From Moorella sp. Hama-1 (GTDB lineage: Bacteria; Bacillota; DSM-521; Neomoorellales; Neomoorellaceae), in the NCBI RefSeq assembly GCF_023734095.1, contig NZ_AP024620.1:2848501-2912500 (forward strand): a stretch of DNA of 64,000 bases, given 5' to 3'. The notes under the pieces were generated by a model. The model had not been told where the DNA came from and searched no databases. It was given only the letters and a program-made list of their open reading frames with translations. The first letter of the stretch is position 1. Each line of letters opens with the position of its first letter. Positions 31,325 through 50,112 of the stretch are shown one piece after another. The translations under genes were made by a program, and so were the position numbers.

Positions 31325-32065
31325 TTATACCAGCATCACCATATCCTCATCCAGCCCCTGTTTATAAAGAGCAAGCCTGCCGCTGCTTTCCAGGGAACGC
31401 GGGGAGGGGTTGCCCAGGGAAAAGGGGAACAGGGCCGGGGAAGCCAAAACCTGGCGCAAGGGCAGCATACCGGAGCCGCCGGCCCGCAGGGTTGCTTCCA
31501 CCAGCCACGCCGCCAGCCCCTCGTCCCGGACCGGCCTTACCGGCGCGGCTTCATAAAGCCCCTTTTCCAGTGTCTCGCCAAGGACCTGCCAGTCGATAAA
31601 GCAGCGCAGTACCCGCCGGGCGGCCCGCGCTACCGTTTCTCGCTCACCCAGCTGCTCCCGCACCCGTCGCTGGACCTGGGCCGCCGCCACCCTCCCCTGC
31701 AACTTTTGCAGCCTGCCGGCGGCTTCGGCGACAATGGCTACAAAGGGATAGACAGCCATGGTCATACCCCAGTGGAGAGCCAGGTGGTCCTCCGGCGGTA
31801 GCTCCCTGAGGAACCTCAAGCCGTCGTCGCGCAAACCCTGGAGCTGAGCCGGTACGGTAACCCAAACTTTCATGAGAATACTGATGGCCTTTTCCCGGTT
31901 GCCACGCTCAGCCGTCCCACCTATCGACAGGCGCTCCCGCAGGAGTTCCTGCAGTCCATTGACGATTTCCTGCCGCCCGTACCCGGCCAGGTATAAAAGC
32001 GCCGTCCGCTCCAGCCATTCCAGCTGGATGCGCTGGCTGAAACCAACAGTTACATTACGATTCAT
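31325..32065 (-). CDS. brxA: last gene of the type 3 BREX operon, BrxA-like
   Basis: A 246-residue, mainly helical protein (ERTALLYLAGYGRQEIVNGL, LALHWGMTMAVYPFVAIVAE). Length, helical content and the place at the end of a brxF-brxC-pglX-brxHII-pglZ operon fit BrxA (DUF1819 type, a DNA-binding helical protein). Sequence similarity to BrxA is not obvious by eye, so the name rests mostly on position. It overlaps pglZ by four bases (ATGA), which ties its translation to pglZ. Confidence 0.7.
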   Translation of the reverse strand: MNRNVTVGFSQRIQLEWLERTALLYLAGYGRQEIVNGLQELLRERLSIGGTAERGNREKAISILMKVWVTVPAQLQGLRDDGLRFLRELPPEDHLALHWGMTMAVYPFVAIVAEAAGRLQKLQGRVAAAQVQRRVREQLGERETVARAARRVLRCFIDWQVLGETLEKGLYEAAPVRPVRDEGLAAWLVEATLRAGGSGMLPLRQVLASPALFPFSLGNPSPRSLESSGRLALYKQGLDEDMVMLV

Positions 32066-34068
32066 ACTTGCCTCCGTTCCAGGTGGATAAAGGGTACGAT
32101 GACTTCTTCAATAGAAATCCCGCCGTGGGCGACGATTCTCTCGTCCTGGCGGACAAAGGCCTTCCGGGGTGGCGCCAGGAGGGGCAGGTAGTCTTCCGGC
32201 AGGCCCAGGGGCGGCCAGGCGATGCTCCCGGGAAATTGATCTTCCACCTGTTTTCGTAGTATCTCGCTCGGATAAACCCTGGCGCGTTCTCCCCGCAGTT
32301 CCGCTGTCACGCCCTCGCCGGGCACCCCGCAACCGCCGGCCTCGATGTTCCCATGATCCGAAGTCAGGTAGACATCAAAACCCCGGGCCCAAAGGAGCTC
32401 CAGCAACCCGGACAGGTAACCCTCCTCCGCCCACTGGCGGACCTGGTTATGCATCCCGGCGGTCCCCAGTTGCATGCCGTGCATAATCTTATCAACCTTA
32501 TTTATTACCAGTCCCAGGACCCGCAGCCGCGGCTCCCCGGCCAGGATGTCCACTTCACCGGGATCACCATCCCCCAATACTTTCATATAACCGATCTCAG
32601 CTCTGGCCAGCCCCTGATTAATCCAGAACTGATTCCACAGGGCCGGTTCCCGCGCGGTGGTATAAATGCCCTCGCCCAGATAAAAGGGGGGCCGGCCAGC
32701 ATAGGCCGCCTGGCGGGAAACGGCCGTCAGGGTTGGCAGCCAGGCAAAGACACCCTCCTCCTGCCACCACCACCCGGAGGTCCTGGCAGCCAGCACCTGC
32801 CTTATTATCACCCACTGGTCAAAGGCCAACCCATCAATAAGTACCAGGGCCGCCCTTGCTGTTCTAGTTCCCGTCATGTTTCTGGCAAGGGCGCGAGGGA
32901 TATGGTGTACCATCACCGGCGGTATGGCCGGCTGATTATAAAGGCCGGCGTAGCGCTGTAGGACCCAGGCCAGAAAGGCGGCGTCCACCCTGGCCAGCAG
33001 GGCCTGAAAGCGTTCCCCTATATCCGGATAGTCCGCCATATGACCTGCAAACCGCAATACCACCAGTTCGGCCCAGGTACGGGCAAAGCCCACCCACTCC
33101 TGGTGCCGGGCCGTTATGCCTGGTAAGGCCTCCTTAGCTTTCTCCAGGAGGCCGTTAATGCGGCGTAGCCAATCGGCACCAGGATCAATGCGGAGCCCGG
33201 CGGCTATCCACTTCTCTTGCACCAGGAAAGCCTGGGGATGGGCCACAGGTTGCAGGTAACCCTCCAGGAAGAGGTTATCCAGATAAACCCGCACGTCGTC
33301 ATGGTCAAAGGGAAGGTCGATGGGTCCCGGGATAGAGGGGTGGTAGACCGCCCGGTTTTCCGCGGCGCGGCTGTCCGCCGCCATTACCCGGTGGTCCAGA
33401 AAGGCCGGCCACCGCTCCTGTAAAAAGGCGAAAAAGGCGCCCCGGTCGGGGATAATCATCTCCAGGGGCCAATCCCGGAAGCGCCCGCTCAGGCGCAAAA
33501 TCTGAATAATCCTTTCATCGAGTAGGGGCGGCAACCGCCGGCCCCGGTAGTGATGTCTGAGGAGTACCCGCAACAGGTCCTGGGGCTCCTTAATCAGCTC
33601 CGGGGCAATCTCGAAAACATACCGGAGAATAAAATCCTTGGTGGCATTGTCCCCCAGGGGCTGCGGGTTATATAAAACCTGCGCCCGGTAAAGGGCGTCC
33701 AGGTCACCCCGGTCCAGGTTGCTGACCACCGGGTAGCTCAGGTTGGGAAAGAGATCACCCAGGGTGAAGGATAATTTGCGGCTGTTTTGCCAGAGGTCGT
33801 AAGGCAGGGTGCAGGGGTCCAGGTTAAGTACCTGCAGGGCTACCACCGTATCCCCAGCCTCCCCCCTGTCCCACCGGGAACGATAATGGGATTCATAGGC
33901 CAGGCGGAAAGCAACATTATCCTCAAAGGTAAGCAAATCAAAGCCCCGCTCCCTGAGGGCGGCGAGTATCTCTTCCTCCACCAGAAGGCCGTCGGGATCC
34001 GCCACCAGGGTAAGGCGGTCGGCCCGGGAGGTGAATTCCTGCAAAATCTGGTCCCGCCAGCTTGCCAT
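32062..34068 (-). CDS. pglZ: BREX type 3 alkaline-phosphatase-like protein PglZ
   Basis: 668 residues. The C-terminal PglZ domain is an alkaline-phosphatase-superfamily fold: RAALVLIDGLAFDQWVIIRQ carries the first metal-binding Asp, VYLTSDHGNIEAGGCG the later Asp-His pair, and ERIVAHGGISIEEVIVPFI the last His. The N-terminal half is the helical region of PglZ proteins. PglZ is needed for BREX defence and for host methylation. The start codon abuts the brxHII stop with no gap, and the end overlaps the brxA-like gene. All metal ligands appear present, so it should be functional. Confidence 0.93.
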   Translation of the reverse strand: MASWRDQILQEFTSRADRLTLVADPDGLLVEEEILAALRERGFDLLTFEDNVAFRLAYESHYRSRWDRGEAGDTVVALQVLNLDPCTLPYDLWQNSRKLSFTLGDLFPNLSYPVVSNLDRGDLDALYRAQVLYNPQPLGDNATKDFILRYVFEIAPELIKEPQDLLRVLLRHHYRGRRLPPLLDERIIQILRLSGRFRDWPLEMIIPDRGAFFAFLQERWPAFLDHRVMAADSRAAENRAVYHPSIPGPIDLPFDHDDVRVYLDNLFLEGYLQPVAHPQAFLVQEKWIAAGLRIDPGADWLRRINGLLEKAKEALPGITARHQEWVGFARTWAELVVLRFAGHMADYPDIGERFQALLARVDAAFLAWVLQRYAGLYNQPAIPPVMVHHIPRALARNMTGTRTARAALVLIDGLAFDQWVIIRQVLAARTSGWWWQEEGVFAWLPTLTAVSRQAAYAGRPPFYLGEGIYTTAREPALWNQFWINQGLARAEIGYMKVLGDGDPGEVDILAGEPRLRVLGLVINKVDKIMHGMQLGTAGMHNQVRQWAEEGYLSGLLELLWARGFDVYLTSDHGNIEAGGCGVPGEGVTAELRGERARVYPSEILRKQVEDQFPGSIAWPPLGLPEDYLPLLAPPRKAFVRQDERIVAHGGISIEEVIVPFIHLERRQV

Positions 34069-36864
34069 CTACCCCGCACCTGCCTCCTCGACTCGAAGTA
34101 ATAACAGAGGAACCATCTCCGGCAGGAACAGGGCCTGCTGTTCCATCCGGCCGGACCACTCCTGCTGCTCCCGATCCAGTTGCGCCAGGCGGTGGGCCCG
34201 TACCGCCGGCAGCCCGATGCGTTCCAGCGCCCGCCGCCGGGCGGCGAAGGAGAACTCTCCCTTCTCCCGCTCCCGGTCCAGGCGCAACCGGTGGGCCTGG
34301 ACCAGTTCATCATAAAGGGGCTTGCCCCGGGCCTCTGCCGCTTCTTTTACCTTCGCGAACATCCGGCCCGATTCCTCCCCACTGCAGTAAAAAGTCACCC
34401 GAAGTTCGCCCTCCAGAAGCCGCTCCCAGATAAACCGGGATGTAGGCAGAAGTTCCCGGCCGTCATCATGGAGGAAATGGGGCATAATCCGCTGTTCCTG
34501 CCCCTCCAGGCCGTGCAGCTCAATACGCCATAGCGACCAGAAACCCTGCACGCCGGCAGCTAGCCCAGGCAGGGAAACGACAGGGATAGGCTGTCCCGGG
34601 GCAAAGGGCGATAATCCTATGACCAGGCCGCGTATCCGGGGGTCTTCCAGGGTTAACTGCCGGCCCTTTACTCCGAAGGTGGCTTCGGACCCGGTAAAGG
34701 TTACCCGTGCCATCTGTTCACCATCCGGCCAGGTCAGTTTCCATGCTTTATCCTGTTGCTCCACTTGCCCGCCGTAAGCCCTTAGATAGCTGACCGTCAT
34801 ACGTTCCACCCAGCAGGGCAATGGGTGGGCCAGCAACCGCTGTGCCTCCCCGGGGTCCAGGCCTTCGCCTGTGGCGGTAAAAAAGTATTGCTGGCGTGCC
34901 TCTTTCACCTGGTCAAGGAGCTGGTTCATAGTTGTTTCGACCCTGGCCTGCCAGTCCTCCGGGTGAAGAAGGGCCTGCAGGTACAGGTCATCAAATACTT
35001 CCCCGGCCTGTTCGGAATCCAGGACATCGCCGGTCTTATCCACGCCAAATTCATTGAAAATCACTACCAGCTTTTCCGCCAGCACCTCCTGTACCCGGTG
35101 CTCCACCGTATCCTCCAGCACGAAGTTTACCGCCCGCACCGGGTGCTTTTGCCCGATGCGGTCCACCCGGCCAATGCGCTGCTCAAGGCGCATGGGGTTC
35201 CAGGGAATGTCGTAGTTAATGACCACGTGGCAGAACTGCAGGTTCAAACCCTCGCCACCGGCATCGGTGGATATGAGGATGCGCGTTTCTCCGGCAAAAC
35301 TCTCTTGAACGATGGCCCGCTCCTCTAAGCCCATGGAACCGTTCAGACAGGCCACAGTAAACCCCCGCGCCGCCAGGAAATCCCGCAGCATCTCCTGGGT
35401 GGCCACAAACTCTGTGAAAACCAGCACCTTCAGGTCCGGGTCGGCCTCCTCCTGCTGCAGGCGATAGATCCACTCCAGGAGCGCCTCGGCCTTCGGGTCC
35501 GGCCCGGCGCTTTCTGCAGCCCTGGCGGTTTGTAAAAGCAGGTCCACCTCGGCCTGCTCGTTATGCAGTTCCTGCAGCTTCACTCGCAGGAGCGTATCCA
35601 GCTGTTCCTGGCCGTCCAGGTCGGCCCATTCGCCCTCCGGCAGCGTTGGGAAAAGGGCCAGTTCGTCTACCGGCGCCTGTAGCATCTCCAGCCGTCGTTC
35701 CAGGGCTGTGCGGATGGCCCGCGTCGAGGAAGTGACCAGGCGCTGCATGAGGACCAGCAGGAAGCCGATATAGTTTCTTTTCTCGCGTAAGGCCTGATTA
35801 TAGCCCTCCCTTACGTAATCCGTCACCGCTTCGTAAAGCCGGCGCTGGTAGCGGTGGCGCTCCTCCCAGGCCACCGGGATGAGCCGCGTCTGCCGGGGCT
35901 GAAAAAGGGGCCGGCCAGCCCCGTCAATGGCCTGCCGCTTCTCGGTCCGGATAATATAAAGCCGGACCCTTTCCCGGGTAACGGCCTCCGGGCCGGGAAA
36001 GGCCTGGCTGTCCAGCAGGGCCATCAGGCGGTAAAAAGCATCAGACTTGCCCTGGTGGGGGGTGGCCGAAAGGAGCAAAAGATACGGCGCCGCCTCGGCC
36101 AGGCCGCGCCCCAGTTTGTAGCGGGCCACCTGGTCGGTGCTGCCGGCCAGGCGGTGGGCCTCATCCACGATGACCAGGTCCCAGCCGGCGGTGATCAGGT
36201 CGGCAAAGCGCTCCCGGTTGTAATCATCCACCTGTTCCCGCGACCAGCCCCGGCGACCGGTGATGGGTTTGACTGCATCCAGGGGACAAACCACCTGGTC
36301 CCGGGTCCGCCACAGGTTCTCTGCCCGGGTGAACCGGCGGTAGGCGCTGCAATCGCCCGGGATAAGCAACTGGAAATCCTCATTGAAGTGGTTGCGCATC
36401 TCGGCTACCCACTGGGTCACAAGTCCTTTGGGCGCGATGACCAGGGTGCGCCGCACCAGGCCCCGGAGCTTTAATTCCCGCATAATGAGCCCGGCCTCGA
36501 TGGTCTTGCCCAGCCCCACCTCGTCGGCCAGGAGATACCGTACCCGGTCGCCGGCCACCGCCCGTGCCAGGGCCTGGATCTGGTGCGGCAGGGGAATGAT
36601 ATCTGCGGCCACGGGGGCGAGGAGAAGGTTGCGGGCCATGGCGTCGGCCACCCTAGCCGCAGCGGCGATATAGGCCACATGGTGCGGCCCGAACATGGCC
36701 CCGGACGAGTCCAGGGGTTTCAGTTGATCGGCCCTGACCCGGACCACCGCATCCCGGGATGGCAGCCAGACGCGGCATATAGAATCGCCCCATACGGTCT
36801 GGACCTCAATTATCTTACCGGCTTCACTTTTATCCTGTAACCATACCCATTCGCCGGGGTTCAA
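34069..36864 (-). CDS. brxHII: BREX type 3 SNF2-like helicase BrxHII
   Basis: 931 residues. After a short SH3-like N-terminal part (WVWLQDKSEAGKIIEVQ) comes the helicase core: DEVGLGKT (114-121), LVIVDEAHRLAG, LLLSATPHQG, LKVLVFTEFVATQEML, ISTDAGGEGLNLQ and QRIGRVDRIGQKHPVR. All motifs of SF2/SNF2 ATPases are intact. A Glu/Arg-rich C-terminal domain follows. Acts with PglX and PglZ in phage restriction. It is similar in plan to the truncated helicase at 16004-19111, which seems to belong to another system. It lies 103 bp after the large ATPase gene, so the inserted cassette stands between pglX and brxHII. Confidence 0.92.
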   Translation of the reverse strand: MNPGEWVWLQDKSEAGKIIEVQTVWGDSICRVWLPSRDAVVRVRADQLKPLDSSGAMFGPHHVAYIAAAARVADAMARNLLLAPVAADIIPLPHQIQALARAVAGDRVRYLLADEVGLGKTIEAGLIMRELKLRGLVRRTLVIAPKGLVTQWVAEMRNHFNEDFQLLIPGDCSAYRRFTRAENLWRTRDQVVCPLDAVKPITGRRGWSREQVDDYNRERFADLITAGWDLVIVDEAHRLAGSTDQVARYKLGRGLAEAAPYLLLLSATPHQGKSDAFYRLMALLDSQAFPGPEAVTRERVRLYIIRTEKRQAIDGAGRPLFQPRQTRLIPVAWEERHRYQRRLYEAVTDYVREGYNQALREKRNYIGFLLVLMQRLVTSSTRAIRTALERRLEMLQAPVDELALFPTLPEGEWADLDGQEQLDTLLRVKLQELHNEQAEVDLLLQTARAAESAGPDPKAEALLEWIYRLQQEEADPDLKVLVFTEFVATQEMLRDFLAARGFTVACLNGSMGLEERAIVQESFAGETRILISTDAGGEGLNLQFCHVVINYDIPWNPMRLEQRIGRVDRIGQKHPVRAVNFVLEDTVEHRVQEVLAEKLVVIFNEFGVDKTGDVLDSEQAGEVFDDLYLQALLHPEDWQARVETTMNQLLDQVKEARQQYFFTATGEGLDPGEAQRLLAHPLPCWVERMTVSYLRAYGGQVEQQDKAWKLTWPDGEQMARVTFTGSEATFGVKGRQLTLEDPRIRGLVIGLSPFAPGQPIPVVSLPGLAAGVQGFWSLWRIELHGLEGQEQRIMPHFLHDDGRELLPTSRFIWERLLEGELRVTFYCSGEESGRMFAKVKEAAEARGKPLYDELVQAHRLRLDREREKGEFSFAARRRALERIGLPAVRAHRLAQLDREQQEWSGRMEQQALFLPEMVPLLLLRVEEAGAG

Positions 36865-36967: not shown

Positions 36968-39900
36968 CTACCGAAGTGCTGTATCTAGGACAAAAGCTTT
37001 TATCCGTACGCCCTGTTGTGACAATTCCCTGGCCTGGGCCTCAAATTGTCTTCTTGCCTCGCCAATATTTATCTTTGGAGAATGGCGTTTTCTATAATCT
37101 GCGTCATCCCACTGGGCACAGTTGAACCATCCGACAAGATATAGTCCATGACGGCAACGTTTATCTTTTAGATAACGGTCCACCAGTTGCGTTTTCATGG
37201 CATTATTCAGGTGGGGGTTCCAGCAACCTTTAACTTCTATAATGACTGTCACTGAATCGAATACCTCTCCGTGTGGACCGCGCACAAAGGCATCGACGTG
37301 AATATCTGTACGTTCACCAAACCCCGACCCCAACCCGCGACGTATTTCTACCTCACGATTGAAGATAATGCCCCTTTGTCTGAGGTCTTGATCCAGATAT
37401 ATTTTGATACTATCAGACAAGCTATTCTCGTCTTTAGGACGATACTTATTACCCGGGATCTCATTCCAAAGAAAAATTACGGCGGGTGTTTCACTGTGGA
37501 GCATGTTTTCTAATCGATTAAGAGATTCTATCAGCACGTCAAGAAGCTGATCGCCGTTTTGGACTAATCGAAGTTCATGATTAGACGTTAATTTAAGGAC
37601 TTCCCTGGATCTTAGCGGTATCCATGTACGGCGACGTGTAGCTGCCTCCGCTTCCAATACCGTCCATTTAAGCCACTCCAGTTCGGGTAACTGGTGAGCG
37701 ATTCGCCGGATGGCCACGCAGGCTTCATGGGTACCACGATTTTTGAGATAAGCCAGGATGGAATCTCTCCATTCAGCAATACTTCCTCTCGGGCCAATCC
37801 AATGGGCTTCTTCATGTATTGGATCTTCACTGTATGGAAACTGGCCGGCCAGCCAGATATATAGATCCGCGAGTTGCTCCTCCGCAAGCTTTTGTACGAT
37901 GGGAACCCCATGTAGGTCCGAGTCGTACGCTATATTTGAAACTACTTGCCGACCGAATTCAGTATTCTGCAGGATGGCAGGCCATACAACCGGCCAGCCG
38001 GCGTCGTCGGTGTGTTCCATGAGCACGCAGGCGGCGATTACTGCCCGCTCTCGTTCCTTTTCATCCATCGGGATCGGGAGCGTTATTAGTGTTTCTGCAA
38101 ATTCTCTGGCTTCGCCGACCTTATGGTCTAATAAGTCACCAAATAAGCACCCCATACATTTAGGCTTTAATTCCCTACTTTTCACCTTCACCAGTAAAGC
38201 GTTTGCAATGCGATCGTCCCAGCAACCATGCACCTTGTGAATAATAAATATGTGGTCGTGTTCTCTGTTTTCCTGTTCAATCAAAGTTATAAGGGTTTCG
38301 ATTATCTCTTCGGCAGCATATTGGTATGCCATATTTATTAATGCTGTATGGGGACTCTCTTTTTTAAGGTTGCTTGGTAAAGGGTAGGCGATAATGATCG
38401 GAGCCCATTTCCTCCAATTATCAGGAGAAAGGTTAACTAGAAAAGAAGGATCCTCCTGCATGAGTAGGAGTAATGCCCGATAGCCGGCAAACGCCGGACG
38501 ATGTAATATATTCTTGCCTAACCATTCGGAAGTTGCCGGATCCTGTTCCAATATATATCTTTTTGCCGCCTCTATGAATCTTTGTCTCGTCATGGTATCA
38601 GCCGTCACCCAACCGGGGAGAGTTGTAAGGTCGGCCTCGAGTTCATTCCCGTAATGGGTGCTATCGGGCTGCAGGGTCATCTCCATGTTAAGTCGCCACC
38701 AGGCTGTGGAGTTCCCTGCCTCGCACTCATCTAGAAGTGCCGCGATGCGTTCTCCTGGGGGTGGTTTTAGAAGGGGCCGACACTGCCGGTGATTCAGCCA
38801 CTTCTCTCTTTCCAGGTAACTTTCTTTCATCCTCTGAGCCTGGGGTGAATTAAGTTGAACGGGTTCTAAGAACCATGAAAACATCTCGACCAGGATGTGG
38901 TTAACCTGGCTGGCGTAATAAACGGCCTCTGCATGAATAGACTCACGAGAATCAAAAACCCTCTCTATCAAATGAGCCCAGGCCTTCTGGTTTTCGGGTT
39001 CTGATTCCTGCAGGTGGTCAATCATCCATGGCAGGTCCTTACTTAAAGCCACTGGTGTCTCAGTACCTACCAACCATATGAAATCCTCTTGAGGATTTTT
39101 AAGCATCGGAACTATTACTTCCAAAATTCTCCGGCGTTTACCATCATTATTGCTTAGTTCATTTTTAAACCTTTCTAGCGCAGGATGGCTTCTTACCACT
39201 CCGTAATAGTTTTTCATTCGAGAAAGAATTGCTTTAGCAAAGGCCTTCAATACATCCGGCCTAGTAATAAAATCCCAAGCCCGGAGCATTATTTTATCTT
39301 CCAGATCCTCAAACCTGGATAATAACAAATCTGTAGGCTGCTGCTCCGCTACCCAATTAAGAGCTACTGGTAGATCCCCAGGTTGGAGATGTTGAATAAG
39401 TTCCTGGGATAGGAATAAAGCGTAAGCCCCCAAAAAATTCTCTCTCTTGGGTGGAGTTAAAATGGCAAATAATTCATCCGCCGTCAAGAAAGCCGGCCAT
39501 ACCGCCAGGAGTCCACAACCTTTCAGTTCGTCTTCAGGATCTTCCCCTACCTCCCCAACGGCTAAAGGCTTTAACTTTTCTTTTGATTTATCATCACCTA
39601 TGCGATATATGGCATATGCAGCGTTTACACGTATCGGCAATGGTTGAGAGGGATCCAGCACAATATGTACGAACTCCTCCTGAAGTTCTTTTAACTCACA
39701 GGCTTCAGCAATATCTATGGCTACGCGTCGTACAACAATACCCTTATTAACATCAGAAATATAAGGATAAAGTTGCCCGGCCAGGCTTGGATGAGCGAGC
39801 TTTTTATACCCTCTACGAATATCTAGATTACGATCCAACAATTTTTCCTCGTCATAAAGTCGTAATAATTCATCTACCAATGCTGCCCGGTCCTTTAAAT

Positions 39901-41185
39901 CCGTAGTTGCTACATCGCTTCGGAGCAGAACTTCAGGATCAGCCTTCATAATCTCCCGAAACACTTCAGGTTTCATACCTGCCAGCCAGGCTGCCAGTTC
40001 ATGCAATTGTGGAACAATCCTCCCTCCAGGATCTCCCGGGTGAACAATGAGACTCATTATCTGGCTTGGTGTCACTCCGCGCTGAACCAGATACCATGCG
40101 GCGAGAAACTCTGCATAAGTTTGGTGAGACCAGCCTATACGATTTGACCCACGTGACGAAAAAAGAGCCGTAGCCAATGTCTCCAGAATCGCGGCTTCGC
40201 TAACTTCAAAATGCCTGCCATCTATGTTCTCGATCTCCCCACAAAGTTCTCTGATTGTCACGTCTTCCTCAGGAACATCGCCCTGGTCGATGCCGGTCCA
40301 GATAGCATACTTATTGGCAAAAATCGTAACGGCCGCTATACGGGCCGCCACCGCCATGCGTTGATCAGCGGTATAATCGCCTCTAAGCTTTGCGTCCCGG
40401 CGGCTTTGGTTCGTTTCTTCGCAGAGCAAGCGACAGCCCTGAAGGTACAATTCGGCCTGGGTGGAAGGGAATTGCCCGGTTTTGCTGGTTTTTATAAGCA
40501 TTTCAAGGGTGACAGGCTTAATGGCTAGCGGTACGGCCTCCATATGGTTAATTTTAAGCAAAAAAGTTTCAGGGTCCAAGCCATTAGCTTTGGCTGCTTC
40601 AGCAACGTCAATGCGTCGTAGCGGGACTAATTCGTATACTTTTACAGAATCGCTGCCCCAAAGTTGACTTAATCCATCTTCCAGGCTTGCCGGCCAGTCC
40701 AGTGTACGGCAGGCTATACGCAGATAAAGCCGCTCCAGAGGGTATTTCCTCAGTTCCTCGATCAGTAAGGCCGCTACTGTATCGATCCGCAATAGGCATT
40801 CATCCAGACTATCAAGGAATAGATGTAAAACATGCGTTCCATCCAGCCAGGCTCGAAAGGTCTGATTCTCAAAGACCGCTTGACATAGCCTGATGTCTGT
40901 TTGGTAGGCCCGAAGGTCAATCCATAAGCATTCTCTTTCCATTGTGCCAGGTCGGTTGCAAATTGATTTCCAATGTGACTTCATCGTCTCAGATTTACCG
41001 ATCCCTGGTTCACCTAATAACACCAGGCATGGAAACTCTGCTATAGACTCGAACGAAACAACATCCGGATTATAATATGAACCAAATTCTGAATCCGGGT
41101 CATAAAGGTACCCTCCATCTGACAGATTGATATTGCCTGCCCTCGGGCACCAAAACCGTTTCCAGTTATATATCTGCTTTAGCAT
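36968..41185 (-). CDS. giant STAND/NACHT-like NTPase with C-terminal PD-(D/E)xK-like nuclease domain
   Basis: 1405 residues from ATG 41185, where AGGAG lies 10 bases upstream; a frame extension to 41233 has no RBS. The start is MLKQIYNWKRFWCPRAG. The P-loop LGEPGIGKSE (about 56-65) and Walker B LHLFLDSLDEC (about 120-130) with LYLRIACRTLDWP (a sensor-1-like Arg region) mark a NACHT-type STAND ATPase. Residues about 400-1250 are helical, HEAT/ARM-like, and should sense a ligand. The last 135 residues have EVEIRRGLG, ERTDIHVDAF (Asp about 1294), TVIIEVKGCWNP (E-x-K about 1317-1319) and TQLVDRY, the layout of a PD-(D/E)xK endonuclease. Known Avs proteins put their effector at the N-terminus, so this order is reversed. 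AT-richer than the BREX genes around it, thus probably acquired. Confidence 0.75.
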   Translation of the reverse strand: MLKQIYNWKRFWCPRAGNINLSDGGYLYDPDSEFGSYYNPDVVSFESIAEFPCLVLLGEPGIGKSETMKSHWKSICNRPGTMERECLWIDLRAYQTDIRLCQAVFENQTFRAWLDGTHVLHLFLDSLDECLLRIDTVAALLIEELRKYPLERLYLRIACRTLDWPASLEDGLSQLWGSDSVKVYELVPLRRIDVAEAAKANGLDPETFLLKINHMEAVPLAIKPVTLEMLIKTSKTGQFPSTQAELYLQGCRLLCEETNQSRRDAKLRGDYTADQRMAVAARIAAVTIFANKYAIWTGIDQGDVPEEDVTIRELCGEIENIDGRHFEVSEAAILETLATALFSSRGSNRIGWSHQTYAEFLAAWYLVQRGVTPSQIMSLIVHPGDPGGRIVPQLHELAAWLAGMKPEVFREIMKADPEVLLRSDVATTDLKDRAALVDELLRLYDEEKLLDRNLDIRRGYKKLAHPSLAGQLYPYISDVNKGIVVRRVAIDIAEACELKELQEEFVHIVLDPSQPLPIRVNAAYAIYRIGDDKSKEKLKPLAVGEVGEDPEDELKGCGLLAVWPAFLTADELFAILTPPKRENFLGAYALFLSQELIQHLQPGDLPVALNWVAEQQPTDLLLSRFEDLEDKIMLRAWDFITRPDVLKAFAKAILSRMKNYYGVVRSHPALERFKNELSNNDGKRRRILEVIVPMLKNPQEDFIWLVGTETPVALSKDLPWMIDHLQESEPENQKAWAHLIERVFDSRESIHAEAVYYASQVNHILVEMFSWFLEPVQLNSPQAQRMKESYLEREKWLNHRQCRPLLKPPPGERIAALLDECEAGNSTAWWRLNMEMTLQPDSTHYGNELEADLTTLPGWVTADTMTRQRFIEAAKRYILEQDPATSEWLGKNILHRPAFAGYRALLLLMQEDPSFLVNLSPDNWRKWAPIIIAYPLPSNLKKESPHTALINMAYQYAAEEIIETLITLIEQENREHDHIFIIHKVHGCWDDRIANALLVKVKSRELKPKCMGCLFGDLLDHKVGEAREFAETLITLPIPMDEKERERAVIAACVLMEHTDDAGWPVVWPAILQNTEFGRQVVSNIAYDSDLHGVPIVQKLAEEQLADLYIWLAGQFPYSEDPIHEEAHWIGPRGSIAEWRDSILAYLKNRGTHEACVAIRRIAHQLPELEWLKWTVLEAEAATRRRTWIPLRSREVLKLTSNHELRLVQNGDQLLDVLIESLNRLENMLHSETPAVIFLWNEIPGNKYRPKDENSLSDSIKIYLDQDLRQRGIIFNREVEIRRGLGSGFGERTDIHVDAFVRGPHGEVFDSVTVIIEVKGCWNPHLNNAMKTQLVDRYLKDKRCRHGLYLVGWFNCAQWDDADYRKRHSPKINIGEARRQFEAQARELSQQGVRIKAFVLDTALR

Positions 41186-41401
41186 GAGGTTTTCACTCCT
41201 AAGGTTTGACACCGAATATCCAATGATGGACATACTATCGCCGGATTAAAACTCATAATTTTGTCTTTATTAATCAACCCTAATCAGTCCCCTTGTATCC
41301 TGCTACAGTAACTACACATGGGAAAACGCTTTCCCTAAAGTGTACGTTCCTTGATGACCCAAATACATTTTCCCCTGGATCTACGCCATTTGCCCAGGCA
41401 C
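41186..41401. other. gap between the two cassette genes
   Basis: 216 bp, AT-rich. It holds GGGAAA-ACGC-TTTCCC (about 41321-41336), a short hairpin, and could carry a private promoter of the STAND ATPase gene on the minus strand. No gene is seen. Confidence 0.4.
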
Positions 41402-42481
41402 TCATTTCTGCATTCCCATGACAGCTCGGCCATACTTATTCCAGACATCTTCGATAGAAAGCCGTTTTACTATATCTCTGAGAGCATCGAGCGCTTTCTT
41501 AGTATAACGTTTGTAGCGTTGAGACTTGATTTTCTTCTCGCCATACATTTCTGGATCATCCCAAATGTTAAGTTCAAACATATAGGCTCTTGTTTTGGGT
41601 ACCGTCAGCCCCAGCTTCTGAGCAATATCTGAAACGCTTAAACTATATTTATCGAACCAGTCAATCTCCTGCTTAACCAAGGTTCCGACAACTGGTTCAC
41701 CGTCCTTGGCTATTCGAACCGCAAGGTCAGCGTCCTTTTTTATTCTATAGTAGATCGGAATACCTTCACCCTGGGTATCCAATTTTAGCTGAGCAATTTC
41801 AGGAAGGAGAACACTCCATTCCTCGCCTCTTCGTCTACGACTAATCGCTTTCCTCAGTTCAGCTTCAGTCACGCGTTCGGCATTATGACGACTTGCCGTG
41901 GCCAAAGCCAGGATAGGCCGAAGTCTGGCTGCGGCCTGAATTCCTTTACGACTACCAGCCTGCAAAAGGACATCAACTTGAGTAAGTTCGCTATCGATTA
42001 GAAGTTGCAAATCTTTAGGGGGGCGGGTTGAAATCGGTAACACCCGTTCTGGGATACAGTCTGCGAGCCTCTCCGCGAATATCCGGTTTAAAAGGTCATC
42101 AAAGAGCGTTACAGCCGCCTGCGCCTGCACATAGAGTAGATTTTCGGAAATTTCCTGGTAATAATGCATTGCAATATCCCTATGAGCGTCCAATATAGAT
42201 AACGTCGATCTTTCATCTGTCGATATCACTTCGATCTCATTCTGCGCTATCTCAAGGCATTTATCAAATGTATATGTATATTTCTCTCCTTTTTCGTGAA
42301 TAGTGCCTTTCCTTTGCTTAATAATCGCCTTTAATAGCATTTCAAAGGCATGATGCAGAAGTATAAGCACGCCTTCCGCACGCCCTTGATCATGAGGGCG
42401 GTTAAACAATTCAATAGCAAGTACCAGAGAGTTGATAGCGCGTTTCTTAAGTTCTACCACATCTCTTTTTATCCTTGGCAT
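41402..42481 (-). CDS. DUF3644-type protein with HEPN-like Rx4H motif
   Basis: A 359-residue protein that starts 3 bp after the pglX stop, with GAGGAATG as RBS. The N-terminal half is helical, with VLILLHHAFEMLLKAIIKQR, typical of DUF3644, and AHRDIAMHYYQE, where Arg101 and His106 form the Rx4H signature of HEPN ribonucleases. The C-terminal half has a helix-turn-helix (SVSDIAQKLGLTVPKTRAYM) that could bind DNA. Similar proteins occur among phage-defence genes. AT-richer than pglX. It most likely forms a cassette with the STAND ATPase downstream (216 bp between them). RNase activity is inferred from the motif only. Confidence 0.75.
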   Translation of the reverse strand: MPRIKRDVVELKKRAINSLVLAIELFNRPHDQGRAEGVLILLHHAFEMLLKAIIKQRKGTIHEKGEKYTYTFDKCLEIAQNEIEVISTDERSTLSILDAHRDIAMHYYQEISENLLYVQAQAAVTLFDDLLNRIFAERLADCIPERVLPISTRPPKDLQLLIDSELTQVDVLLQAGSRKGIQAAARLRPILALATASRHNAERVTEAELRKAISRRRRGEEWSVLLPEIAQLKLDTQGEGIPIYYRIKKDADLAVRIAKDGEPVVGTLVKQEIDWFDKYSLSVSDIAQKLGLTVPKTRAYMFELNIWDDPEMYGEKKIKSQRYKRYTKKALDALRDIVKRLSIEDVWNKYGRAVMGMQK

Positions 42482-42484
42482 AAA

Positions 42485-45400
42485 TCATTCCTCTTCTGTA
42501 CGAGTAACCGCCTGGTCGTACCACATCAACAGCTTGGGGTCCTCCTGGAGGACGCTTTCCGGGATTTTGCGGGCGACGGTGATGATGGTCCGGTAGTCGC
42601 GTTCCTGCCAGGCTTTTTTGAAGCCGGCGCGGATGGCTTCCAGGCGGAAGACCTTGAGCCGGCGCTGGGTGGACTGGCGGTAATCGTCAAATTCCTTCAG
42701 CAGGGCGCGCTCGCGCAGCTTTTCCAGGTCGGCGGCGCGGTTGGGGTCGGGGATATACCAGCGGTCTTTAGCGGCATTCAGGAGTTGTGGGTCGGTAGTC
42801 TCCAGGCCCCTGATGGTGACGTTCTCCTGCCGTTCCTCCAGTTCCTGGATAAGGGGCCGGTATTTCTCCGAGCACTTCAGCCAGGCCACGATGGGGGCCG
42901 GGATGGGGCCCTTGCCGTCGTAACGTAAAAAATTTTGCTCCAGCAGTTCCGTTAATTCCAGAGGCTTCTCGTGCTTCTGCCAGCCGGAGATTTCCCGCAT
43001 AAACCGGGGATGAATCTCCTGGAAGGTCTGGGGTTTTTTCGCCAGCTCCGCTTTCAGCCACTGGACGGCAGAGGCCTCATCGGTGACGAAGAACTGGAGC
43101 TGGAGCACTTCCTGCACCGTCATGCGCTTGCGGTCATATTCCACCACCTGATCGGGCAGGAAGTACATGCCGTCGCGCGCGGGAAAGCGCTGTGCCAGCC
43201 CGGCGTAGAATTCCGCCGCCGACAGGGGAACCATGACGTTGCGCCGCACGTGGAAGGCCACCATGCGGTCGTAAAGCAGGTAATTGGTGCGCTCGGCGAT
43301 AACCTGGGCCTGGCCGTTTTGGGCGGTAAAAACGGGCAACTGGCGCAGGTGGGTGCGGACAAAGTCCCATACCCCTTCCTCCGTACCCGCTTCCAGCTTG
43401 AAGCGCTCCTCCAGGCCGCCGTTGGGTTTATAGGCGGATATGACCAGGTCCTGCTTGACGGCGCCGCCGCTAGTAACCTGTTTGAAAGTCCCCTGTTTCT
43501 TATCCAGGATGCGCACGTCGGCGACCACAAAGCCGGCGTCCTGGAGGGCTTCCTGGATGGCGTTCCAGACGCTGTTTTTAGAGTTGTGGAAGACCACCGT
43601 CATCCAGCGTCCGGGCTTGAGGACCCGGTAGTACTCCCGGAAACAGCGGGTCATAAGTTCTTTATATTCAGCCAGCCCTTTGCTCTGGACCTTGTTCTCA
43701 ACGGCCTCCGGTTTATTGTTGGTAAAAACCCTGAGCCATGCCTCCCAGGGAAAGTTGAGTTCGGAGTACATCAGGTTGCCGCCAAAGGGCGGATCTACAA
43801 AAATGTACTCAACAGTGTATTTCCTGCTATTCAATTTCGCTGTAGAGCATAGGAATATGAGACTCCTTATAGCAGATATATACCGGAACGCCTTAATATG
43901 CTTTGTTAGTTTATGAGGATAAAAATGTAAAGGATTATTCTCTCTGCTCAATGCAGGAATATATAAGGTTCCCGAAAGAACACTCATTGGAAATGACCAA
44001 TTGCCATGTTTTACACGTTTACTTAGTCCATGATCAAGTGAATTAAGCCAATAGTTCATAGTCCTGTTGTATCCAACTCTTTTCCTTAATGCGCTCAGCA
44101 CCCACAAATTCCGCTTCGTATAAAAATGGTGCACGTGGGTTATGCCGTGGGAAACCTTCGGCTGTTCGGTATTGTACCCCTCCGGCATCCGGTCAGTAGG
44201 GAACCAGTAGGGAATGTCGCTCTCCTCAATCTTCTCAATGAGGGCTAGGTCGAAGGCGTCGGGCTTTTTCTCAAAGCGCTTCCGGCCGTAGGTATAGTTA
44301 ATGAGCACCGGTACCTGTTTGGTCTGGCGGACGGTCTGGTTGATGGCTTTATCATACCGCGTCACCCAGGCCCGCTCCATGGTGCGCTTGGTGAGGCGGG
44401 CGTTGCAATGGGGGCAGGGGAAGGCGTCACGCACCCGGCCCGCCTCTTTGTCCACGGCGGCATCCCAGAAGATCACCTCGCCGCTGCACTCCGGGCAGAC
44501 AAAGACGTCGGACCAGACGGTATAGTTGATACGGCCCCAGGACAGGCCGGATACTTTCGTCCACCCGGCCGGGGGCGTGGAGGAAAGGAGGTCGAGGGCC
44601 CTGGCCACCCGGTCGCCGGCAGGGTTGTGCAGGGTAAGGTACATCCAGCCGCACTCGTCTTCTACTTCCTGCAGGATGCGCCGGGCCTCGCCCTCGAATT
44701 CGGCCACATCCACCGGCGTGTTATAGTTATAGGCGATAAAGGTGGCCGCCGGGGAGAGGTCGTTCAGGATGGCCCGCCGGGCCCCCAGCCGGGAGAAGGG
44801 CCGCCAGACCGTGCGGCCGTTCTCCTCTTCTGGTTTGAGGATAGTGCCGTCGTCCTGTACCCGGTAGCCCAGGGATTCCACTGCCTGGCGGTCGCCGCAG
44901 AGCTGGGCGGCCACGCCGGTCATGCCGGTGCCGGCAAAGCCGTCGAAGACCAGGTCCCCGGGTTCCGTATAGTGCAGGATGTAGCGCATGATGGCTTTAT
45001 GGGGCACTTTGGTGTGGTAGGAATGGGCGTTGTAGATGGGGTCATTCTTCCCCTCGCTCACGTCCGCCGCGAAGGGCTCCTTGTTATAAGGCACAGCCGG
45101 GTCGTAATGCTTGCCGTAGAGCTTGATGAAATCATCCAGGAAAGGGTTGGGGCAGGCGGTGTAGTAGGGCGGGTCGGAGAGACGCAGAATGTCCTCGATC
45201 TCCCCGTGGGGGAAGCCGACCTCATCCTGCCAGCGCTGCAGCAGGTCCTTGCCCGCATCCCCCCGGCGCATACGCTGGGCCAGTTCCCACAGCCGCGCCT
45301 CATCGCCCACAGGCCACCTTTCCACCGACCGCAGGCGGGCCACGGCGTCCTCCACAGAAGTAAAGGGCACCCCGCCCAGTTTGGCCTGCAGTTCCTCCAG

Positions 45401-45538
45401 CCCCTGGCGCAACTTGTCGGTAAAATAGGCCCGCCTGGCTTCTTCATTAACGAAGGTCAAACCTAAACACTCTACCGGCTGCTCTTCAGCCCCGCCGGGC
45501 TGCCCTGTAAATAATTCTGTCTCTGCCATTCCTTGCAT
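42485..45538 (-). CDS. pglX: BREX type 3 adenine-specific DNA methyltransferase PglX
   Basis: 1017 residues. It marks host DNA by N6-adenine methylation and takes part in phage exclusion. SDPPYYTACPNP (121-132) is the catalytic DPPY motif, VFDGFAGTGMTGVA (197-210) the SAM-binding FxGxG motif, and YIFVDPPFGGNLMYSE (about 575-590) a second DPPF copy. A zinc ribbon is suggested by FVCPECSGEV and FPCPHCNARLT (about 350-385). The segment of about residues 476-579 is clearly AT-richer than both sides, which suggests exchange of that part by recombination. It follows brxC by 11 bp. The order of DPPY before FxGxG marks the type 3 form rather than the PglX of types 1 and 2. Confidence 0.9.
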   Translation of the reverse strand: MQGMAETELFTGQPGGAEEQPVECLGLTFVNEEARRAYFTDKLRQGLEELQAKLGGVPFTSVEDAVARLRSVERWPVGDEARLWELAQRMRRGDAGKDLLQRWQDEVGFPHGEIEDILRLSDPPYYTACPNPFLDDFIKLYGKHYDPAVPYNKEPFAADVSEGKNDPIYNAHSYHTKVPHKAIMRYILHYTEPGDLVFDGFAGTGMTGVAAQLCGDRQAVESLGYRVQDDGTILKPEEENGRTVWRPFSRLGARRAILNDLSPAATFIAYNYNTPVDVAEFEGEARRILQEVEDECGWMYLTLHNPAGDRVARALDLLSSTPPAGWTKVSGLSWGRINYTVWSDVFVCPECSGEVIFWDAAVDKEAGRVRDAFPCPHCNARLTKRTMERAWVTRYDKAINQTVRQTKQVPVLINYTYGRKRFEKKPDAFDLALIEKIEESDIPYWFPTDRMPEGYNTEQPKVSHGITHVHHFYTKRNLWVLSALRKRVGYNRTMNYWLNSLDHGLSKRVKHGNWSFPMSVLSGTLYIPALSRENNPLHFYPHKLTKHIKAFRYISAIRSLIFLCSTAKLNSRKYTVEYIFVDPPFGGNLMYSELNFPWEAWLRVFTNNKPEAVENKVQSKGLAEYKELMTRCFREYYRVLKPGRWMTVVFHNSKNSVWNAIQEALQDAGFVVADVRILDKKQGTFKQVTSGGAVKQDLVISAYKPNGGLEERFKLEAGTEEGVWDFVRTHLRQLPVFTAQNGQAQVIAERTNYLLYDRMVAFHVRRNVMVPLSAAEFYAGLAQRFPARDGMYFLPDQVVEYDRKRMTVQEVLQLQFFVTDEASAVQWLKAELAKKPQTFQEIHPRFMREISGWQKHEKPLELTELLEQNFLRYDGKGPIPAPIVAWLKCSEKYRPLIQELEERQENVTIRGLETTDPQLLNAAKDRWYIPDPNRAADLEKLRERALLKEFDDYRQSTQRRLKVFRLEAIRAGFKKAWQERDYRTIITVARKIPESVLQEDPKLLMWYDQAVTRTEEE

Positions 45539-45549
45539 CCCTCTATCTC

Positions 45550-48500
45550 TTATTCCAGAATAACCCGCACCCTGGCCGGGTCTTTGCCGGCCGTGAGCCC
45601 GGCCAGGTAGTTTTCAAAGCGCTGGCGCAGTTCGGGAATGGTGGCCGGGGAGCCGCCTGCCAGCAGGGCGGCACGCAGGTCCTCGCTTTTGATGAGCACT
45701 TTAGTCAGGCCGGAAAGGACCTCCCGTACGGCCTGGATGAACCCCCGGTCCAGGTGTTCCGGCAGGGCCCGCGCCTGGAGAAAGGCTTCGATGCGCTGCC
45801 GCGCCCCGGGCTGGAGCAGGGCCAGGTTTTCCCGGGTGGTCGGGTCTTCCAGGTTGGTGATAAGGGTTCGCGTCCAGGTGTCCAGAAGCAGGTCCAGCTC
45901 CTCGTCCAAGGCGTCAAGGATAGCCCCGGCCGGCCCTTCGCCGCGTTCGCTGGCGGGTTTAAAGCCGCAGTGGGGGCAAACGGGCGCCGTCGCCAGGTCC
46001 CCGGGGGTCAGGGCAAAACAGGTCCGGAAGGATCCCAAGCGGTTCTGGAATGCGGTTAGCTGGCCGGCCGGCATCAAGTCAATGGTGGCCAGCTGTTGCA
46101 ACTTCTCCAGACGGCCGTCGGCAGCCAGGGCGGCCTTGCGCCGGTCTTCATTGGCCCCCAGGCGCGCCCGGGTATGGAGGGCCATGTAAATATCGCTATA
46201 CTGTTTCTTCAGTTCAACCAGCCGGCGGATTTCCTGGCGCCGGTCCACGGCCTGAAGGTTCCCTGCTTCCCCAATCTCCTGCAGCTGTTTAAGAATCTCC
46301 TCCCGCAGGGCCTGCGCCCGGTCGATCCAGGGATGATCCGGGGGCAGTACAGCCTCGGCGGTGGCCAGATAGGCCGCCAGGGGGCCCATTTCCACCACCA
46401 GCTGGCGGAGGCTTGCCACCTCCTGCAACGCCTGCAGGCCGTCCCGGTGGGCCGCGACTTCCGCCGCCCCGTACCGGAAATTCTTCAGCTTACCCGGTGA
46501 GTTAAATACCTGCAGGGATTCCAGGAAGGCGCGGGCCTGTTCCAGACGGGCATGATAACGCTGCACCTCGTCTTCTGTCAGCAGGCTCTGCCCCCAGAAG
46601 GGGAAGCCGCCCTGCAGGTGCTCCCGGGCCATTACCAGTTGCTCCACTGTCTCCCTGACGGCCTGCTGCAGTTGCTGCACCGGCCCCTCCTTCCCCTGGG
46701 TGACCTCCACCGCCAGCCCCGGCGCCAGGCCCAGCAACTCGAAGAGGGCCTTGATCCCCGCTACGTTCCATTCCCGGGGCAGCTTGATATGTTTGAAGGC
46801 ACTTAACTCGGCCACCGGCGTCGCCGCCAGGGCGGGTAAGGCGGTGGCGTCAAACTCCTGCCCGGTAATGGATAAGATGAGGTCCCCCGAGTAAACCAGG
46901 GCTGCCAGGAGGACCACCACCCATTCGGGCTCCAGGCGGAAGGTTTCCGGGGCCATATACTCCACGTCTTTTACCGGCCGGATGATCTCCGGCCGGTTCA
47001 CCACCTGCCCCGGCCCCTTCTGGCGCAACAGCTCCAGGATATGGCGGGCGTAAGGGGAACGGGAGGGGTCCAGCCGTTCACCGTCCAGGAGTTCCAGGGC
47101 GTCCAGCACGGCGGTTCCCTGTTTGGTCCTGTTGCTCCCGGCTATCCAGCGCAGGGCGTCCTGGGCTGCCTGGGGCCGGTTGGCGCTGGTGATGAGGACG
47201 GAAAAAACCGGATAGTTGGGGGCTTGATTCTGGAAGTTAGTCGCCAGGCAGGCCGCGGCCACCGCGTTAACCAGGTCGCGGACATTGCCGCGGCTGCTGA
47301 TGATTGCCGCCTGGGTACCCTTCAACCAGGCCAGTAAGGGCTTGTGCCGTCCCTGGTGGGTAACTGTATAAGCTGCGGCCAGGTGCTCCTGCAGCCACTG
47401 GACCATGGCACGAAGGAAATCGCCGGCTTTAGCTTGATAGGTAGCCTTAGCCTGGCCCGATGAAGTCGCGGCCAGGTCGGTGGCGGCCGCATAGTTCCGT
47501 AACGCCGTACGAAAATCGTCGTCGGCGCCGGTAAGGCGGAAGAGAACCTCATCGGCCTTTTTCTCATCCTTGAAGGGCGGCGGGTCATAGGGCTGGATGA
47601 AATAGATATAAAAGTCCCGGGGTGGGTAGGCGGTGCTGCGCTCGTTGGGCGTACCGAAGAATAGCCACCCCTGCCGCGCCGCTTTGTGCTCCCGCCACTC
47701 CACCTCGTAGACCCAGAGGTTCCGGTACTGCGTAGCGGGCAGGTCTTCACACTCCAAGATCTGTTTCAAAGCCTGGTGGTAGGCCCGGTTCAAGTTGTCA
47801 TCAGCCAGGCTCTCCGCCCGCTTCTCAATAAGGGCGTCGAAGTCGTCGGTCTTTTTCAGGTCCAGGTAGTACTGGCGGTTGTCCGGGTTGGTGGAAATAA
47901 ACTGGCCGCTGACGGTACGGTGGATCTCCCGGAGGACCGTCTCCACCTGGGACAGGAGGTCGTCGGCCGGGTTGCCGCCCAGCTCTTCAATGCCGGTCTG
48001 GTAGAGGCAGAGGGTGTCGCGCAGTTCCTCCGGTGTGGCCCCGATAGGAGCATAGATGTCGCCGGTGGTCAGGCGGTGGATGGAAAGGGCGTGGATGATC
48101 CGCAGGGCCATGGGCCTGTAGGCCGGCCGGGTAAAGGCCTGCTGGATGCGGGCTTCCAGGACCTGGCTGCACTCGATAACGGCCTTGATCTCCGGGACAG
48201 CCCGGTAAGAGGAGTTCCCCCGCAAGGTATCCCAGTAACTGTCGTAGGCGATGAGGCCCGGGTGGTCCGGCGGTACCTCCTGTTCCAGGAGCCCTTTCAT
48301 GGCCAGGGACAGGGTCTTTAACGCCTCGCGCTTCTCCACCACCGTGATGCGCTCAAAGATGTCGAAGTAATCCGGGTGGACGGGAAAGAGACGCACAAAC
48401 TCGTCCAGGCGTTCGTTCAGGTTGCCGTAGCAGCGGGCAAAGGGCAGGAGGTATTCCCGGACCAGAGCGCGCTGTTTGGCGGTCTTCTTTAACAAACGCT

Positions 48501-49269
48501 CGCCGACCACGAACTTGATATCCCGGCGGGCGATTAGTACCTGCTCAAAGCGATCCTTTACCCGCCGGACGCTGTCGGCAACAAAGGCAAAGCGGGGGCT
48601 GTCGAAGATCGCCTCCTGGACACCGGCCAGAAAACGGAAGCGCAGGTCTTTGCATACCTCGCCCATCTCCCGCAGGAAGTTCAGGTCGAAGACTATTTCC
48701 TGGTCATCGCGGTAGCGCAGGTAGTCCAGCAATTCATCCACCACCACCAGCAGACCGTGGTCCGGATACTGCTGGTGGAAGGCCGCCATCATGGTTTCCA
48801 GGGCATCCTTGTTGTTGGTGATGGTGCTGGCCGCCGGAAAGGTGTAATCAACGCCCATGGCAGCCAGGTGTTCTTCCAGCTCGGCAGCAATAATGTCCCG
48901 CAGGGCCATGGTGGTGGCGCCGATTTCCAGGCGGACGACCTTAAAGCGGCCCGCTATAGTGCGGGCGGCGGCTGCCACCCCGGGATGCTTGAGTTCGGCT
49001 ACCAATTCGGCGTGTTCGGCGATGGTGGAGATGACGGCCATGAGGTGGGATTTACCGGTACCGTAATTGCCTACCACCAGGATGCCTTTGTTATCGGCCG
49101 GCCGGTCGAACTGCAGGTTCGGAAAAACTACGCCGGTGAGCCTTTCGGCCATGTCTTCCGAGACGACGTAGGTAGCCACCAGCTGCCTGGCGGCCGTCAT
49201 TTTATCGGCATCCCGCAGCTGGACCACGGTTTCAATGGGATCGAACTGGATCAAATCGCCGTAACGCAT
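45550..49269 (-). CDS. brxC: BREX type 3 P-loop protein BrxC (DUF6079)
   Basis: 1239 residues with an AAGGAG RBS. Walker A is [11 protein letters not shown] (66-75) and a Walker B-like [16 protein letters not shown] follows (about 175-190), as in AAA+ ATPases of the BrxC/PglY group. The middle and C-terminal thirds are helical; CPHCGFKP near residue 1100 pairs with no obvious second CxxC, so metal binding is doubtful. BrxC is a core BREX component, essential for both restriction and methylation in studied systems. It lies between brxF (86 bp upstream) and pglX. Confidence 0.92.
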
Positions 49270-49355: not shown

Positions 49356-49853
49356 CTATATCCCTGGCTCCGGCCCGATCTGGTTCCCGGTGGTGACAAT
49401 GGTCAGGTTGTCAACCGGGTAGCGGCGGTACTCCGGGTGGCCCGGTTCGGCGTAGATCAGGCGCCCTTTTTCCAGAAAACCGTTCCAGGCCGCCACAATG
49501 GTGCGGTCGCGGGCCAGGCCCTGCAATAAACGCAGGGGATCCTGCTGCAGGGCCGGGTCAAATAAGATCTCCAGGTTATCTAGCAGGTAAACCCTGGCCC
49601 CTTTATCCTGTAGGATTGCGGCCAGCAACCTGGGTGTATGCAGGGCGCGCTGTCTCCGGCTCAGGTCAAGGAGGCGGCGGCTGAGTTCCAGGTTGACGTT
49701 TATGTAATGGTAACCCTCCTGCCCGGCCAGCTCCTGCAGGATACGCGTTTTCCCCGACCCGGAGGGGGCGACCAGCAGAACCAGTTGATAATAAAGGCCG
49801 CGGACCTGGGCGATCCTGGCGCTAATCTCTTCCTTAATTAAAATTGCCGACAT
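49356..49853 (-). CDS. brxF: BREX type 3 ATPase BrxF
   Basis: 165 residues from ATG 49853 behind CGGAGGGAAGG; the frame can extend to 49913 but with no RBS. Walker A is LVAPSGSGKT (27-36) and Walker B VYLLDNLEILF; the end has NLTIVTTGN (sensor-1 like). Small ATPases of this size open type 3 BREX operons only, and here it is first in the operon, which settles the type. The promoter should lie in 49854-50000; no clear -35/-10 pair was found. Confidence 0.88.
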   Translation of the reverse strand: MSAILIKEEISARIAQVRGLYYQLVLLVAPSGSGKTRILQELAGQEGYHYINVNLELSRRLLDLSRRQRALHTPRLLAAILQDKGARVYLLDNLEILFDPALQQDPLRLLQGLARDRTIVAAWNGFLEKGRLIYAEPGHPEYRRYPVDNLTIVTTGNQIGPEPGI

Positions 49854-50112
49854 ACTGCCTTCCCTCCGGGCGAATTGTACGCTGCTGGTGACGCCAGGTG
49901 CAACATGGTCCATCTTTTCCCGCCGAAGATGCCTTTATTTATGTCGAATAACAATAAAACCATTCTACAATTTTTTGGCATATCCTGCCGTTATCACCAA
50001 TTTTCTTGCTTGCTTTCTTGCTAGCGCCTTGTAGTTGGGGCCAATACAAATCAATCTTACCCCGTCCACCCGTCAAATACTGTCGGGTACATATGTTCTT
50101 AAGCAAAATAAT

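Follow-up and report, generated by a model that had tools for sequence, protein, structure and literature searches.

The DUF3644 gene is embedded in a BREX type 3 operon

The window analyzed here, a stretch of 64,000 nucleotides from Moorella sp. Hama-1, carries on its minus strand a complete BREX type 3 (BREX-3) operon, wherein brxF, brxC, pglXI, a DUF3644 gene, a NACHT-like ATPase gene, brxHII, pglZ and brxA follow one another. The BREX genes brxF, brxC, pglXI, brxHII, pglZ and brxA are all present and in order, as in BREX-3; brxA gave no Pfam match and is assigned by its position and similarity (Table 1). The open reading frame of the DUF3644 gene spans exactly positions 41402 to 42481, as had been noted earlier. 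Neither the surrounding BREX-3 operon nor the coupling of the DUF3644 gene to pglXI had a place in that earlier note. The two genes are separated by only 3 base pairs, and the GAGGA-like ribosome site of the DUF3644 gene lies within the end of pglXI.

Table 1. Features of the BREX-3 locus. Positions refer to the window.
Feature	Position	Strand	Details
brxA	31325..32065	minus	assigned by position; 41-57% identical to the gene that closes other BREX-3 loci
pglZ	32062..34068	minus	NF033449 BREX_PglZ_3, above cutoff
brxHII helicase	34069..36864	minus	PADLOC BrxHI|BrxHII, 1447 bits
NACHT-like ATPase, PD-(D/E)XK-like C-terminus (second cargo gene)	36968..41233	minus	partial EruA match; motifs read in the sequence
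DUF3644 protein	41402..42481	minus	359 aa, ATG start; PF12358, PDC-S19, AlphaFold2, VIA-align
R101-H106 codons (RDIAMH), predicted RNase active site	42164..42181	minus	invariant in 32/32 homologues
Gap, pglXI stop to DUF3644 start	42482..42484	minus	3 bp; the same in L002, L003, L004 and L005
pglXI DNA methyltransferase	42485..45538	minus	PADLOC PglXI, 1480 bits
brxC (DUF6079 ATPase)	45550..49269	minus	PADLOC BrxC, Pfam DUF6079
brxF	49356..49913	minus	NF033453, E = 8.9e-57, above cutoff
Nucleotidyltransferase (Polbeta/NTP_transf_2), upstream of the BREX operon	51490-52269	minus	nearest one found

The DUF3644 and NACHT genes have a GC content of 0.44 to 0.47, against 0.58 to 0.63 for the BREX core, which fits a later insertion. 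The DUF3644 gene is intact and under strong purifying selection, with dN/dS values of 0.02 to 0.11 where dS is measurable.

Several other features of the region were observed. DDE transposase genes flank the BREX island (26003-27853 and 52617-54311, both on the plus strand). The central block of PglXI is only 24 to 51% identical to its BREX-3 relatives and much of the rest is about 60 to 85% identical, the pattern that an exchanged target-recognition domain would be expected to leave. Elsewhere in the window, at 16004-20094 (minus strand), there is an SNF2 helicase together with a short piece of a DUF1156/HmaB-like methyltransferase; they possibly represent a truncated BREX-related system of the Hma type.

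The protein is predicted to have a HEPN domain with an invariant catalytic pair

The Pfam DUF3644 profile (PF12358) matches residues 12 to 155 of the protein (E = 2.7e-19; 69.9 bits against a cutoff of 27.6), and the PADLOC profile PDC-S19, which describes the same family, matches over its full length (residues 5 to 352; E = 6.8e-116, 385 bits). In PADLOC, PDC-S19 has no more than the status of a phage defense candidate, and our literature search found neither an experimental report on it nor a reported activity for any DUF3644 family member. The PDC names reportedly come from a paper on genetically embedded defenses.

DUF3644 was placed in the HEPN superfamily already in 2013 (PMC3710099). 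The hallmarks of catalytic HEPN domains are an R-x4-6-H motif whose arginine is followed by N, D or H, all polar residues, and, in many families, an Ex3[K/R] motif upstream (PMC3710099). The DUF3644 protein includes the sequence AHRDIAMHYYQ, in which R101 and H106 have the x4 spacing. We aligned 32 DUF3644 homologues, taken from genomes of bacteria and archaea and from plasmids, prophages and viral contigs, and both residues are kept in every one, including homologues that share only 16 to 20% identity with the window protein. The only other invariant columns among the 359 are N27 and L148, and the chance that both named residues would fall among four random invariant columns is about 1e-4 (6/64261). 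The residue after R101 is D, N or H throughout the set, and Glu47 and Lys51 of an Ex3[K/R] motif are each present in 29 of the 32. Among the homologues associated with BREX (see below), a tyrosine follows two residues past the histidine (Rx4HxY, 8/8) and is not kept outside this clade. The Rx4HxY arrangement is also that of HepT toxins.

A sequence search gave no homologue of solved structure. AlphaFold2 applied to six sequences yielded a model with a pLDDT of only 65.5, which rose to 77.5 when five homologues from viral contigs were added to give an 11-sequence alignment. In this model, pLDDT is about 80 to 95 at residues 1 to 140 and mostly 80 to 92 from residue 281 on; no fold was assigned to the middle region (about 139 to 275) in the whole-protein model. 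Residues 4 to 138 superpose on 2hsb with a Z score of 14.4 (rmsd 2.3 over 123 residues; VIA-align). Other matches include MntA-HepT (Z about 12.5), the human sacsin HEPN domain (Z = 12.5), Csm6 (Z = 10.4) and further HEPN chains at Z of 8 to 12.6, values to be read with the guidance of the structure-alignment tool that a Z below about 13 may be unspecific for helical bundles. HEPN chains make up nearly all of the best-scoring matches, which makes a chance match unlikely. Foldseek E-values are weak (best 0.04) with probabilities of 0.99 to 1.0, and the best Z score exceeds those of unrelated helical bundles.

At the other end of the protein, residues 283 to 354 are modeled as a helix-turn-helix, a beta hairpin and two helices, and residues 276 to 349 give a moderate match to the DNA-binding domain of RacA (5i41; Z = 6.5 over 62 residues). 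This predicted C-terminal winged helix (about 276 to 354) weakly resembles the RacA domain and serves as a lead rather than a proof. The earlier note had read Arg101 and His106 as the residues of a HEPN RNase within a helical domain, a reading that the alignment and the predicted fold both bear out, and its proposal of a probable DNA-binding segment in the C-terminal half gains support from the modeled winged helix.

A BREX-3 clade occupies a cargo site behind pglXI

Every DUF3644 copy found with at least 68% identity to the window protein lies within BREX-3 (7/7, counting the window itself, L002-L005, L028 and L105), and these copies span archaea and several bacterial phyla. The 3-bp spacing behind pglXI recurs in five loci, namely the window and L002-L005 (Methanosaeta, Syntrophaceae, Bacteroidales and Deltaproteobacteria); in L028 and L105 other cargo intervenes. 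A further copy, 49% identical and adjoining a brxA-brxB-brxC locus, joins these seven in a group of eight with 100/100 support, to which we refer as the BREX clade. As far as the literature was searched, a BREX-3 clade of DUF3644 with a fixed position behind pglXI has not been described, whereas the family and its fold are known, as are arrangements of this type.

More distant relatives are found in other settings. Seven lie in type I restriction-modification (R-M) operons (L084, L029, L031, L106, L108, L101 and L102), several of them between hsdS and hsdR or between hsdM and hsdS. These copies do not form one clade in the tree, so the linkage to R-M probably arose more than once. Other distant relatives stand alone on plasmids and prophages, one adjoins a ThsB-type TIR gene and another is near an Eco29kI-type R-M pair. 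A search of the same phylum revealed no further copy among 398 genomes. A scan of viral contigs with the single DUF3644 protein as query returned nothing, and scans with DUF3644 alignments returned five loci.

The comparison set for the interval between pglXI and brxHII comprised 13 other BREX-3 loci (L064-L083) from the phylum of L005's genome in which both genes are visible. The interval is filled in 12 of these and empty in one, and its contents include complete Gabija and IetAS systems as well as HEC-02A- and PsyrT-like genes. This interval is a cargo site of BREX-3. We also considered DUF3644 as a core BREX-3 component and rejected this, since its absence from all 13 loci marks it as accessory. 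In L105, the cargo between pglXI and DUF3644 is a protein that matches PD-T7-3, to which the HEPN protein BxaP is structurally similar (PMC10799925).

Two further kinds of protein were seen in this interval. A protein of 449 to 465 amino acids with an RNSLVH motif occurs in three BREX-3 loci (L064:8458-9807, L083 from 8811 and L028:10624-11970); the copies scanned gave no Pfam or PADLOC match, and it is possibly an undescribed HEPN effector family. In addition, L072:8944-9489 encodes a 181-amino acid protein with the motif RNECAH and no family match.

Discussion

The predicted fold, the invariant catalytic pair and the defense-operon context make the role of RNase effector, which the earlier note had offered as one of two options, well supported as a prediction. 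We consider it probable that the DUF3644 protein is a HEPN RNase effector encoded by an embedded accessory, or backup, gene of the BREX-3 anti-phage operon. Our best reading, by analogy, is that it works like PrrC or BxaP, where we infer both the RNase activity and the control by BREX.

HEPN backup effectors have been described across BREX (PMC12839542). The closest in arrangement is BxaP, whose gene likewise is inserted between pglXI and brxHII of BREX-3 and has relatives within type I R-M operons. BxaP defends E. coli against T4, probably through abortive infection, and does so in cells without BREX as well (PMC10799925). However, BxaP has a DUF4145 HEPN domain and another C-terminus with a weak HEAT-like match, whereas the DUF3644 protein has a winged helix and Pfam finds in it only DUF3644 and no DUF4145; furthermore, the function of BxaP is experimental and that of DUF3644 predicted. 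The anticodon nucleases PrrC and RloC are also HEPN-superfamily RNases whose genes are linked to type I R-M operons, and PrrC is released when a phage inhibits the R-M enzyme (PMC2610378). They differ in being fused to an ABC ATPase, which the DUF3644 protein lacks, and in the spacing of the active site. The EC042_2821 HEPN family (PMC3710099, Table 1) overlaps DUF3644 and shares fusion to a winged helix-turn-helix and occurrence in R-M operons, but the restriction endonuclease and zinc-ribbon fusions described for it were not seen in DUF3644 here. HepT, from MntA-HepT, shares the HEPN fold (Z about 12.5) and the Rx4HxY of the BREX clade, but has about 130 amino acids and no winged helix.

The strongest competing explanation, to which we assign somewhat less than an even chance, holds that the protein is an autonomous RNase for abortive infection that senses phages by itself, carried by BREX-3 and R-M operons without any functional link to them. 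Such independence would suit the copies that stand alone on plasmids or prophages, the unrelated complete systems (Gabija, IetAS) that use the same interval, the activity of BxaP without BREX and the low GC content of the gene relative to the BREX core. It is at odds with the fixed coupling to pglXI in five loci, with the confinement of one clade to BREX and with the repeated location beside hsdS/hsdM in type I R-M operons. The standalone relatives suggest that the protein does not depend strictly on BREX, and they speak against a strict control through BREX or R-M.

HEPN domains may act purely as binding modules. In a second alternative, the protein would regulate the BREX operon by binding DNA, and its HEPN domain would only bind RNA or protein, as in MtlR. 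The RacA-like winged helix is what such a regulator might carry, and HEPN domains that lack the motif do act as regulators (PMC3710099). We nevertheless regard this role as improbable, because the arginine and histidine are invariant in all 32 homologues, unlike in motif-free regulators, and because the standalone and R-M copies share no target operon.

The neighboring gene provides a third alternative, wherein the DUF3644 protein would form a two-gene system with the NACHT-like ATPase as its effector or regulator; regulation of this ATPase was the other option in the earlier note. The ATPase (1421 amino acids) has the motifs GEPGIGKS and LDSLDE and a PD-(D/E)XK-like tail (TDI...EVKG), and it matches the antiphage protein EruA partially and far below the cutoff; no source paper could be traced for the NCBIfam names EruA and HyoA. 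The two genes are adjacent, on one strand and similarly low in GC content, but 168 bp separate them and no NACHT relative was found in the other DUF3644 loci searched. Relatives of the ATPase with 25 to 45% identity reside on plasmids, and among the plasmid records listed, the 12 for NACHT and the 12 for DUF3644 share none. With no co-occurrence in the loci searched and with a nuclease-like C-terminus of its own, the ATPase was rejected as a partner, and we judge the pairing very improbable; the regulatory option of the earlier note is not supported either.

Least credible of all is a HEPN toxin of the MntA-HepT type silenced through AMPylation by an MNT nucleotidyltransferase, since the resemblance to HepT in motif and fold comes with a tyrosine that is lost outside the BREX clade, and since no MNT antitoxin gene adjoins DUF3644 (its neighbors are pglXI and the NACHT gene), the nucleotidyltransferase gene of Table 1 being rejected as a partner because it lies 9 kb off, past brxF and with another gene intervening, and has no relative in other BREX-3 loci.

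Returning to the embedded HEPN RNase, the DUF3644 protein would dimerize, its Arg/His pair would cut RNA without a metal ion, and it would remain silent in healthy cells. The RNase would be released upon infection, or when an anti-restriction protein of the phage takes out the BREX complex. It would then cut tRNA or mRNA and stop translation, thereby aborting the phage in the infected cell. The role of the winged helix is probably to anchor the protein on DNA or on the modification complex, or else to sense that state, and cell shutdown would probably come when phages pass the main BREX defense.

How such an RNase might be held in check can be viewed in two ways that share one effector step. 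The standalone copies suggest autonomous sensing, and the coupling to pglXI together with the family's habit of R-M association suggests a guard like PrrC. The specific form of the latter, which we consider possible but less likely than not, is that the BREX clade is a dedicated guard, inactive while its winged helix binds PglXI or BrxC or methylated host DNA, and that phage proteins inhibiting BREX would release the DUF3644 RNase. If this were true, BREX-3 would have two layers, as EcoprrI-PrrC does, but its HEPN RNase would lack an ATPase.

The locus thus offers a concrete, cloneable case for asking whether a suicide RNase acts as a second layer of BREX-3, policed by the coupled methyltransferase. 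More broadly, whole defense systems have repeatedly been loaded between pglXI and brxHII, and reading many genomes at this place would be a cheap route to new ones.
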